From Acidobacteriales bacterium 13_1_40CM_3_55_5 (lineage in GTDB: Bacteria > Acidobacteriota > Terriglobia > Terriglobales > Acidobacteriaceae): a stretch of 32,598 nt of DNA. Numbering within the stretch: position 1 is the stretch's first letter; every line of letters begins with the position of its first letter. The translations under genes and the position numbers were made by a program. The DNA is taken from assembly GCA_001918935.1 (NCBI GenBank), contig MNGW01000054.1, positions 1 through 32,598 of the forward strand, in the 5' to 3' direction. The notes under the pieces were generated by a model, which searched no databases, was not told the DNA's origin, and worked only from the letters and a program-made list of their open reading frames with translations. Positions 4,372-30,203 of this stretch are shown here, piece after piece.

Positions 4372-4376
4372 GATCA

Positions 4377-4458
4377 GGTTTCTGGTTTCCAGTTTCAAAT
4401 ACCTACTGAAAACATCCGAGCTTCTGACTTCGTAAATCGTAATTCGTCAATAGTAAAT
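4377..4458. repeat. Degenerate heptamer arrays (ggtttct/ggtttcc/agtttca and acttcgt/aaatcgt/aattcgt/caatagt)
   Basis: Two consecutive 7-bp-periodic words filling the convergent intergenic gap between the site-2 protease stop (4371) and the serA stop (4463). Confidence 0.65.
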
Positions 4459-4462
4459 TTCC

Positions 4463-9987: not shown

Positions 9988-10119
9988 GCACGCGAGTCTA
10001 TCACCGGGTAGAGGACCGCACCTGCCTCGTAAATTGACGCCGCTAGTCCCCAATCCCTAGAATCAAAGACAGAGCAATACCGCGATTGCTGTCGAATTCA
10101 AACAAGCCGTTGGCGAACG

Positions 10120-10147
10120 ACCAAAGACCAACGACCGACGACGGTTG
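10120..10147. repeat. Short heptamer array (accaaag/accaacg/accgacg/acggttg)
   Basis: Four consecutive degenerate 7-mers just upstream of the FmdB-like gene. Confidence 0.6.
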
Positions 10148-10158
10148 TTAGGGAGTCC

Positions 10159-20189: not shown

Positions 20190-20242
20190 GAACGCAGCAT
20201 CATACGTGGGGGATGTGCCGGGGGGCAAGGTGGAGACAGCAG

Positions 20243-20451
20243 TCAGCACTCAGCACTCAGCACTTAGCACTTAGCACTTAGCCATTACGGGCCGGTGCCG
20301 CGTCGTTCAGATTGGCGCAAACGATTGTTGAGGGGCAACGGCGAAGGGCAGCATTTGGCACTTAGCTCCTCACCGATCGTTTGGACCAACTCTGACGTAA
20401 CCACCAGCGGCCAGTAATGGCTAAATGCTAAGTGCTAAATGCTAAGTGCTG
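20243..20451. repeat. Long imperfect palindrome ending in inverted heptamer arrays (TYAGCAC / GCTAART)
   Basis: Arms 20250-20282 and 20419-20451 are inverted with 30/33 identity; inner pairs ccattac/gtaatgg, ttgg/ccaa, aaacgat/atcgttt and tgagg/cctca are symmetric about ~20350. Confidence 0.88.
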
Positions 20452-20457
20452 CGGAAA

Positions 20458-21114: not shown

Positions 21115-21219
21115 TGAATTTCAAGTTACAGCACGACTGCTAGCCAGGCAAGAACGTAGGACCGCGACCGAGCGGGGCGAGTCGATCATTACCCGCTCAA
21201 CCCTGAGATCATCGATCAG

Positions 21220-23726: not shown

Positions 23727-23769
23727 GATCTGGGGTCTCAGGTCTGGGGTCTCAGGTCTGGGGTCGTCA
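23727..23769. repeat. Tandem array of 14-mer (2x7) GGTCTGGGGTCTCA, three copies
   Basis: gatctggggtctca / ggtctggggtctca / ggtctggggtcgtca. Confidence 0.9.
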
Positions 23770-23794
23770 GCATCAGGTCGCGGTACAACTTTGA

Positions 23795-23810
23795 TGTGAC
23801 GGATATCACA
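23795..23810. promoter_or_regulatory. CRP/FNR-family-like operator TGTGA-N6-TCACA
   Basis: TGTGACGGATATCACA located 52 bp upstream of the four-helix-bundle start codon. Confidence 0.5.
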
Positions 23811-23862
23811 GCGGGCGCAGGACCTCTCATGCTCGGATAGGGCTTGAGCAGGAGAACATCCT

Positions 23863-24231
23863 ATGGCTGCCACTTATCAGGACTTAAAGGTTTGGCAACT
23901 GGCAATGGACATGGTTGCCCATGTATATCGCTGTACCGCGACGTTCCCAAAACAAGAGATGTATGGCTTAACCAGTCAAATGAGAAGGTCGGCTGTTTCG
24001 GTTCCCAGCAATATCGCGGAGGGCAAAAGGAGATTTTCGCGGAAGGAATTGGTGCAGTATCTATTTCGAGCCCGAGGATCATTACTTGAATTAGAAACGC
24101 AAATTTTGATTGGACGGAGGCTCGGATACCTTGACGACACGGAAGGCAAACGACTCACGAGTTTAACCAGCGAAGTTGGGCGCCTCCTGAACGGCTTGGT
24201 AAATTCCTTTCAATCGCAGCTGAAACCCTGA
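23863..24231 (+). CDS. Four-helix bundle protein (23S rRNA-intervening-sequence protein / bAvd-like family)
   Basis: MAATYQDLKVWQLAMDMVAHVYRCTATFPKQEMYGLTSQMRRSAVSVPSNIAEGKRRFSRKELVQYLFRARGSLLELETQILIGRRLGYL: hallmark LxVWQ, LxxQMRRSAVSxPSNIAEG, GSLxELETQ. Confidence 0.95.
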   Translation: MAATYQDLKVWQLAMDMVAHVYRCTATFPKQEMYGLTSQMRRSAVSVPSNIAEGKRRFSRKELVQYLFRARGSLLELETQILIGRRLGYLDDTEGKRLTSLTSEVGRLLNGLVNSFQSQLKP

Positions 24232-24240
24232 AACTTCGAT

Positions 24241-24286
24241 ACCTGATATCCCAAGACCTGAGCCCTGAGACCCCGGGACCCGACCC
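24241..24286. repeat. Degenerate heptamer array, inverted relative to 23727-23769
   Basis: acctgat/atcccaa/gacctga/gccctga/gaccccg/ggacccg/accc; reverse complement contains ggggtctcagg and ctcaggtct, as in the left array. Confidence 0.8.
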
Positions 24287-25215
24287 TAACTAGCCAGCTC
24301 ATGCTCAACGAGCTCAACGGCTCTTTGCTGGATGCCCGGTTCGTCCCCAAAGCCGGCGAGCCACGCTACGTGCGGCTCGCGGCGAAACCATGTCATTTGG
24401 CGCTTGGCATAGTTGCGATGGGCCTGCTGTGCGGCTTGAATCGCGGTATCACGATCAACTTCTCCGCGGAATAATTGAACTGCTTGTTTATATCCAAGCG
24501 AGGAAAGCGGGCGGGCCGCATCCCCGTATTTTTCAAGCATGCTTCCAGTTTCTTCGACCAGACCGGAATCGAACATCTGTTGTGCACGCTGGTTGATGCG
24601 TTGATAGAGCGCAACGCGCTCGGGATTCAGTCCCAGACGAAGAATATGGAAGCCCTGCAGCGGGTCGCGGCCTTCTTTCCACATTTCGGACATTTCCTTG
24701 CGCGAGGCCAGGCAAACTTCGATGGCGCGAATCAGTTTGGGAGTGTCATGGGAATGAATCTTCGCTGCTGCCACCGGATCAAGACGGTACAGCAACCGGT
24801 GAAGATAGGATTTGTTTTTTGCACGCCGGCGCAGACGATCACGTAACTCTTCCGAACGCTCCGGTCCCGCAAAGAGGCCTTCCAATAGGGCCTGAAGGTA
24901 GAGTCCGGTTCCGCCAACTACGATCGGCAGGCTGCCGCGAGTTTTGATTTCTTCCAGCACTTTTCGAGCCTGCCTCGAGTATTCTCCGGCCGTGACGTAA
25001 GCAGTAGGACCCACAGAATCGAACAAGTGATGAGGAACACGACCGCGTTCGGCCATGGTCGGCTTGGCGGTGCCTATATCAAAGTCGCGATAGATTGCGA
25101 CTGAGTCGCAATTGACGATCTCCCCGCCGAAATGCTCGGCCAGCGCCAGGGACAGGGCGGTCTTGCCGCTTCCTGTGGGACCAAGCAGGACGATCAAGAG
25201 AGACGAATGAGACAC
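24286..25215 (-). CDS. miaA: tRNA dimethylallyltransferase
   Basis: LLIVLLGPTGSGKTALSLALAEHFGGEIVNCDSVAIYRDFDIGTAKPT, IVVGGTGLYLQALLEGL, YAKRQMTWFRRE. Likely GTG start at 25215. Confidence 0.95.
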   Translation of the reverse strand: MSHSSLLIVLLGPTGSGKTALSLALAEHFGGEIVNCDSVAIYRDFDIGTAKPTMAERGRVPHHLFDSVGPTAYVTAGEYSRQARKVLEEIKTRGSLPIVVGGTGLYLQALLEGLFAGPERSEELRDRLRRRAKNKSYLHRLLYRLDPVAAAKIHSHDTPKLIRAIEVCLASRKEMSEMWKEGRDPLQGFHILRLGLNPERVALYQRINQRAQQMFDSGLVEETGSMLEKYGDAARPLSSLGYKQAVQLFRGEVDRDTAIQAAQQAHRNYAKRQMTWFRREPHVAWLAGFGDEPGIQQRAVELVEHELAS

Positions 25216-30079: not shown

Positions 30080-30203
30080 GCACTCAGCCGTCAGCACTTA
30101 GCATTCAGCACCTGCACTTGATTCTTGCGCCCACTCAACTGAATTCTCTTCAATAACCAATCTCTGTTTGGCTGAATGCTGAGTGCTGAATGCCGAATGC
30201 TAC
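30080..30203. repeat. Paired inverted heptamer arrays (GCAYTYA / GCTGAAT)
   Basis: Left 30080-30114: gcactca/gccgtca/gcactta/gcattca/gcacctg; right 30171-30201: gctgaat/gctgagt/gctgaat/gccgaat/gct. Confidence 0.85.

Follow-up and report, generated by a model that had tools for sequence, protein, structure and literature searches.

An S23p-family gene between inverted heptamer arrays in an Acidobacteriales genome, and its relation to the intervening sequences of 23S rRNA

The window element and its gene

We analyzed a 32,598-nucleotide stretch of DNA from Acidobacteriales bacterium 13_1_40CM_3_55_5 (contig MNGW01000054.1, positions 1 to 32,598; the window hereafter), in which a short gene of the S23p family lies between two inverted arrays of tandem heptamers. 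A first-pass annotation, made from the sequence alone, had compared this cassette to the intervening sequences (IVSs) of 23S rRNA. The gene and the two arrays it described are indeed present, with open reading frame (ORF), Tandem Repeats Finder (TRF) and inverted-repeat analyses in agreement:

23727-23770, + strand: left arm, tandem heptamers GGTCTGG/GGTCTCA reading inward (sequence; TRF period 14/7; arm of an inverted pair)
23795-23810, + strand: CRP/FNR-like palindrome TGTGACGGATATCACA, 52 nt upstream of the start codon, probable promoter region of the gene
23863-24231, + strand: gene for an S23p/23S-IVP four-helix-bundle protein of 122 aa (PF05635, E=3.2e-37; TIGR02436, E=2.6e-34; 2GSC, E=1e-24)
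24241-24286, - strand: right arm, inverse heptamer array (reverse complement GGGGTCTCAGGGCTCAGGTCTTGGG), abutting the miaA stop codon (inverted repeats I1-I4; sequence)

In profile searches the window protein scores 127.4 bits against PF05635 (curated cut-off 33.8) and 117.7 bits against TIGR02436 (cut-off 24), and the earlier assignment to the four-helix-bundle family thus holds. The closest solved structure found in the PDB is Xcc0516 (2GSC, E=1e-24), a toroidal homopentamer with a ring of five four-helix bundles, as cited in PMC4990558. The protein is also homologous to Avd of diversity-generating retroelements (PF22296/NF033474, E=6.6e-8), but its 30.5 bits against the Avd model lie under the cut-off of 80, and by that test it is not an Avd protein. 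Its reading frame, the PF05635 ORF, is the only one in the element, and no Y1 (HUH) transposase is encoded. The gene is flanked by a GH3 gene on the left and by miaA on the right, neighbors that were annotated correctly and that we recovered by profile search, and Rfam gave 0 matches in the window; there is consequently no rRNA in the window, and the element does not lie within 23S rRNA.

The left array reads GGTCTGGGGTCTCA, and TRF reports positions 23729-23770 as a repeat of period 14 (two 7-mers) with 96% matches. The inverted arms align over 30 nt at 77% (23741-23770 with 24243-24272) and over 21 nt at 86% (23732-23752 with 24254-24274). In the predicted RNA folds of both strands the arrays pair with each other, mildly better than in shuffled sequence for the + strand (z -1.5) and clearly better for the - strand (z -3.5). 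No terminator-like site was found in the region of the element. Taken by itself, the window bracket is marginal, with an inverted-flank score of 27 and a p value of about 0.035 against a swapped-flank null; it is lifted well above chance by its recurrence across other family members.

We compared the upstream region with those of other family genes in this genome (own genome hereafter; a 74% complete assembly of 2.87 Mb) and in the only other genome of the genus, G001 (the sister). A CRP-like site is located 83-113 nt upstream of the start of the four-helix domain in seven of nine family genes from the two genomes. Exact matches to TGTGA-N6-TCACA occur three times in 355 kb sampled, and two of them, the window site included, belong to family genes. 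Judging from these palindromes, the S23p genes of the genus may have a regulator in common. We also note the CRP/FNR-like palindrome TGTGAYGGNNNTCACA upstream of most family genes in the genus, with equivalent sites in L033, L034, L106 and L107. The window site sits between the left arm and the start codon, whereas at the family gene C44 the arm comes after the site. A window transcript started at the CRP-like site would be devoid of the left arm, which speaks against a plain excised stem here; with arms on differing sides of the putative promoter, they need not form one RNA stem in every element.

Inverted heptamer arms across the protein family

We surveyed the flanks of family genes using an inverted-flank score cut of 30, the 99% points of our swapped-flank nulls being 37 and 34. 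Arm positions were taken from domain boundaries; right arms often overlap the stop codon, and ORF-end distances are therefore unreliable. In the survey of the order and class (70 family genes, 41 genomes), 60/70 members score at least 27 and 57/70 at least 30. A wider survey, for which a genome collection was scanned with the Xcc0516 sequence and plasmid matches were added, yielded 90 usable members of other phyla, with scores of at least 27 for 72 and at least 30 for 63. These members come from Xanthomonas, Bacteroidota, Clostridia, Planctomycetota, Chloroflexi, Nitrospirota, Gemmatimonadota, candidate phyla, Cyanobacteria and others. The search for gene copies lacking arrays, proposed with the original annotation, thus showed that most copies have them, and there is strong support for the notion that a cassette similar to an IVS occurs outside rRNA; it proves general, with inverted heptamer arms on members of more than 20 bacterial groups.

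Among control ORFs from the own and sister genomes, 2/520 reached a score of 30: one of these belongs to the family itself, and the other is a palindrome unrelated to it (1/519 non-family ORFs). The difference between family genes and other ORFs in these two genomes is highly significant (Fisher p=3e-14). Inverted heptamer arms stand on both sides at 5/5 family places in the own genome, with one unit per gene (GGTCTCA, CAGCATT, AGTGGCC, AGTTTCT and ACGATTG), and at 3/3 complete places in the sister (CAGCATT, TAGTGGC and AGTTCTC). For members of the wider survey above the 99% null point, the main repeat period is 7 nt in 40 cases, 8 nt in nine and 9 nt in two. A phage-retroelement Avd protein, included as a distantly homologous control, lacks heptamer arms.

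The two arms of one element are related in detail. Compared in register, they are 0.894 identical, while units within an arm match each other at 0.767 and arms shifted by one unit at 0.67-0.68; part of this excess reflects selection, as the register was picked by the aligner, yet the gap is large. The in-register match beats every shifted comparison in 84/103 elements, and the order of variant units tends to agree between the two arms. Reading inward, arms are G-rich (35%) and C-poor (14%). Array pairs in the own-genome sample are inverted in 11 cases and direct in one, and close pairs in Xanthomonas arboricola and Dokdonella are all inward-facing (18 in the (+,-) and 0 in the (-,+) arrangement). 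Arrays of period 6, 8, 10 or 11 form 0 inverted pairs.

The unit is common to both arms of one gene, varies between genes and tracks the protein lineage across genomes. Protein and unit similarity are correlated with a Mantel r=0.213, against a standard deviation of 0.027 and a maximum of 0.096 in 2000 permutations; the reverse-complement control gives 0.001. The same relation is seen between two genomes whose family genes both occupy the accB/accC place. X. arboricola has a single family gene, with GGGAATC arms, and contains GGGAATCGGGAATC (GGGAATCx2) 188 times and GGGATTCGGGATTC (GGGATTCx2) 15 times. In Dokdonella, where the orthologous gene has GGGATTC arms, GGGAATCx2 is found 19 times and GGGATTCx2 170 times, a genome-wide switch that we had expected before counting. 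Arms, gene and dispersed arrays are thus one co-varying system. In Xanthomonas, GGGAATC is described in PMC4692102 as an abundant unexplained repeat, each genome having about 70 pairs that face inward.

Family members are found in diverse places. An Azospirillum member (L149) resides inside a 23S rRNA gene, and others lie between ribonucleotide reductase subunit genes, between cas6 and cas4, between cas10 and cmr3 and, as read directly from the flanking sequence, between carA and carB and between accC and accB. The S23p elements within CRISPR operons (cas6/cas4, cas10/cmr3) belong to cyanobacterial plasmids (L150, L235, L236); this location may explain why the repeat-associated proteins of a CRISPR screen include the family (PMC10910872). 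A second S23p element of Xanthomonas dyei (L279), with GGGACC arrays, was placed between carA and carB by the carB start in its flank. In L126, L139, L145 and others, the family reading frame enters the right array and ends in peptides such as TQHSALST, NPKSEIRN or ITQLPDYPITQ. Protein databases probably owe low-complexity tails of this type to such read-through.

Gene-less arrays and turnover between related genomes

Arrays with a lag of 7 are common in the own genome, with 25 in 323 kb as compared with about 0-1 for lags of 5, 8, 10, 11 and 13 at equal threshold, and at a looser count 35/43 are intergenic. Arrays alone are therefore not peculiar to the window gene; the bracket is. Intergenic heptamer arrays in the window also occur at 4373-4459, 10111-10148 and 30083-30202, in the classes TTTCCAG, TCGTAAA, AACGACC and CAGCACT. 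Two inverted pairs in the window carry no gene:

20231-20454, no strand assigned: gene-less inverted heptamer pair of the CAGCACT/CTTAGCA class, relative of the C44 gene arms (inverted score 66)
30083-30202, no strand assigned: second gene-less inverted pair of the CAGCACT/CTTAGCA class (inverted score 37)

Gene-less pairs resemble the arms of resident genes, with a mean best similarity of 0.67 in the own genome and 0.66 in the sister, compared with 0.33 and 0.34 for random sets (0/5000 in each case). Their cores are unalike, and we could thus rule out that they are simple deletion copies with a common core, since the cores are non-homologous between loci. At the 20231-20454 site the sister has a shorter, simpler version, the window version being compound and about twice as long; this fits better than an inner inversion in the sister, at which a BLAST comparison had hinted. 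We also considered whether the 133-aa ORF that inverted arrays enclose in the sister (L091, 17852-18253) represents another type of gene, and rejected this because the ORF has no family match and consists of palindromic DNA. At this place (L091, 17814-18286), the DNA between the inverted TAGTGGC arrays, about 370 nt long, is palindromic and apparently non-coding, with no S23p gene. Array density in relatives relates only loosely to gene number, and we dropped it as a proxy.

We compared four sites between the own genome and the sister. The window junction carries arrays of the same class in the sister and no gene. At the contig 4 site, the own genome has an AGTTTCT element and the sister a gene-less AGTGGCT hairpin at the identical spot. 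The place of the sister's TAGTGGC element is occupied by a gene-less GGTCTCAG pair in the own genome, and at the place of its AGTTCTC element a deletion remnant is left, with a single arm and the gene's 3' end. By these sequence comparisons, elements are gained, lost and exchanged for others at the same intergenic places. The first-pass annotation had held that a relative with arrays here and no gene would point to chance juxtaposition. The sister is formally such a relative, but the conclusion does not follow: a gene element, a gene-less hairpin of another class or a deletion remnant stands at the other compared sites, which is ordinary turnover.

Known systems, a proposed mechanism and its alternatives

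The 23S rRNA IVSs of Leptospira, Coxiella and Brucella have an S23p/IVP ORF between terminal inverted repeats, over about 430-560 bp. In Coxiella the terminal stem contains tandem heptamers (GACAGAT x3), and RNase III cuts at the first repeat (PMC4990558); this would fit an IVS being an element caught in rRNA. The window element differs in that it lies outside rRNA, has a unit unlike that of Coxiella and a probable promoter of its own, and has gene-less relatives dispersed in the genome.

Orphan heptamers form a second group of known repeats. These are GGGAATC in Xanthomonas and GGGGATT in Nostoc (PMC4692102), TAACTGA in Beggiatoaceae (PMC4679880) and heptamer elements in Geobacter (PMC2700814). 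They resemble our arrays in being tandem intergenic 7-mers, and Xanthomonas combines many inward-facing pairs with an S23p gene bearing GGGAATC arms; the window unit, GGTCTCA/GGTCTGG, is different. No link of the repeats to an S23p-family gene was found in the passages of these three papers that were consulted, S23p terms having been looked for in two of the three.

A closer parallel in organization is the REPtron, a RAYT (TnpA_REP) gene with flanking repetitive extragenic palindromes (REPs) and dispersed REPINs. Here too, one gene is bracketed by inverted repeats, and gene-less inverted pairs of that repeat are dispersed. This arrangement is found in the own and sister genomes, Xanthomonas and Dokdonella. 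In contrast to a REPtron, our gene encodes a four-helix bundle without a nuclease motif, and the repeats are tandem arrays instead of imperfect palindromes. Avd is comparable as a homologous four-helix bundle; it is set apart by the curated cut-offs and by the armless phage control.

Together, these comparisons make it probable that the 23727-24286 cassette is one of a very widespread family of elements, each about 0.45-0.6 kb long, whose protein binds its own heptamers and whose repeats are dispersed in a REPtron-like manner. Such an element would consist of an S23p gene between inverted tandem arrays with a unit of usually 7 nt, sometimes 8 or 9. The toroidal S23p pentamer may bind the tandem heptamers that belong to its own element, perhaps with each subunit taking up about one repeat. 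By analogy with TRAP, which binds spaced GAG repeats, a ring of five bundles would suit a run of four to six repeats. Recognition by S23p would then tie together gene, arms and dispersed arrays, as RAYT transposases do for REPs and REPINs. The element encodes no nuclease, and any movement thus needs outside enzymes; it could spread, and leave gene-less hairpins behind, through a host nuclease, polymerase or reverse transcriptase acting in trans. The 23S rRNA IVSs would be members that ended up in helices of rRNA and can be tolerated there because RNase III trims the arm stem. Since one 23S rRNA gene does contain a member, the IVS of rRNA seems to be a particular instance of a general element.

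Several observations weigh against this proposal. The score cut is missed by 13/70 and 27/90 family genes in the two surveys, and the correlation between unit and protein is modest in size. G008 has nine family matches and 0 lag-7 arrays in 40 kb sampled. The gene-less pairs have common arms around non-homologous cores, only a short AGCCATTAC edge recurring. A clean empty target with a target duplication, the mark of a classical insertion sequence or MITE, was found at 0 of the compared sites, the sister holding other arrays or remnants. The putative promoter stands on differing sides of the arm, and no one RNA structure suits all loci. Finally, translation of the Coxiella S23p is reported to be improbable (PMC4990558).

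The leading alternative is a host regulatory network, in which S23p is a resident nucleic-acid-binding regulator, the arrays are its binding sites at gene borders and its own pair is autoregulatory, with arrays spreading by slippage and selection in place of mobility. Purifying selection on the protein, which also agrees with the proposed element, is strong, as this explanation would have it, with a ratio of nonsynonymous to synonymous substitution (dN/dS) of 0.07 for the C44 orthologues of the own and sister genomes and of 0.06-0.21 among Xanthomonas species. Some copies are inherited vertically (C44/C121; the accB/accC locus of Xanthomonas and Dokdonella), all arrays change in concert with the arms of the gene, and a TAACTGA-binding protein has been proposed for the Beggiatoaceae heptamers in PMC4679880. 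We nevertheless consider such a network unlikely, because several unrelated units and genes coexist within one genome, gene-bearing and gene-less elements of differing classes alternate at identical sites, and the places in rRNA, between subunit genes, in cas operons and on plasmids look like insertion.

It is less probable still, and in our view distinctly so, that the arrays are independent intergenic features into which a mobile S23p gene merely inserts. The sister's same-class array without a gene at the window junction and the abundance of arrays in intergenic DNA are what one would expect of such a target preference. Insertion into a one-directional array would, however, yield direct flanks, and not 11 inverted pairs to one direct, and neither the in-register match of the arms nor the tracking of protein lineage by the unit across genomes and phyla would be accounted for. 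Chance, or ordinary terminator hairpins beside an unremarkable gene, could draw on the marginal p value of the window bracket and is hardly credible, being contradicted by the control ORFs (1/519), the lack of inverted pairs at periods 6, 8, 10 and 11, the recurrence across phyla and the absence of terminator-like sites from the region; chance juxtaposition is ruled out by the control ORFs and the other lags.

The proposal of a self-recognizing element can be extended, and here we see the odds as evenly balanced: S23p/IVP proteins would be sequence-specific readers of tandem heptamers, each adapted to its own unit, and with their arms and dispersed gene-less hairpins would form a hitherto unrecognized, kingdom-wide, REPtron-like class behind many orphan heptamers of bacteria, with the 23S rRNA IVS as a special case. 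The protein family, the rRNA IVSs, the heptamers in one IVS and the orphan heptameric repeats were each known separately. We found no paper linking the S23p family, IVSs and orphan heptamers in the open-access literature, where papers naming the family are few. S23p and the rRNA IVSs have been without a known function for more than 30 years, and the abundant heptamers of Xanthomonas, cyanobacteria and other groups without a known maker; the comparison links both, and the pairing of protein lineages with their 7-nt units provides natural material on how S23p reads sequence.

Apart from the arrays, the sister differs from the window by about 1.25 kb (L320, 9921-11171) that is missing from the window and falls between positions 21186 and 21212.
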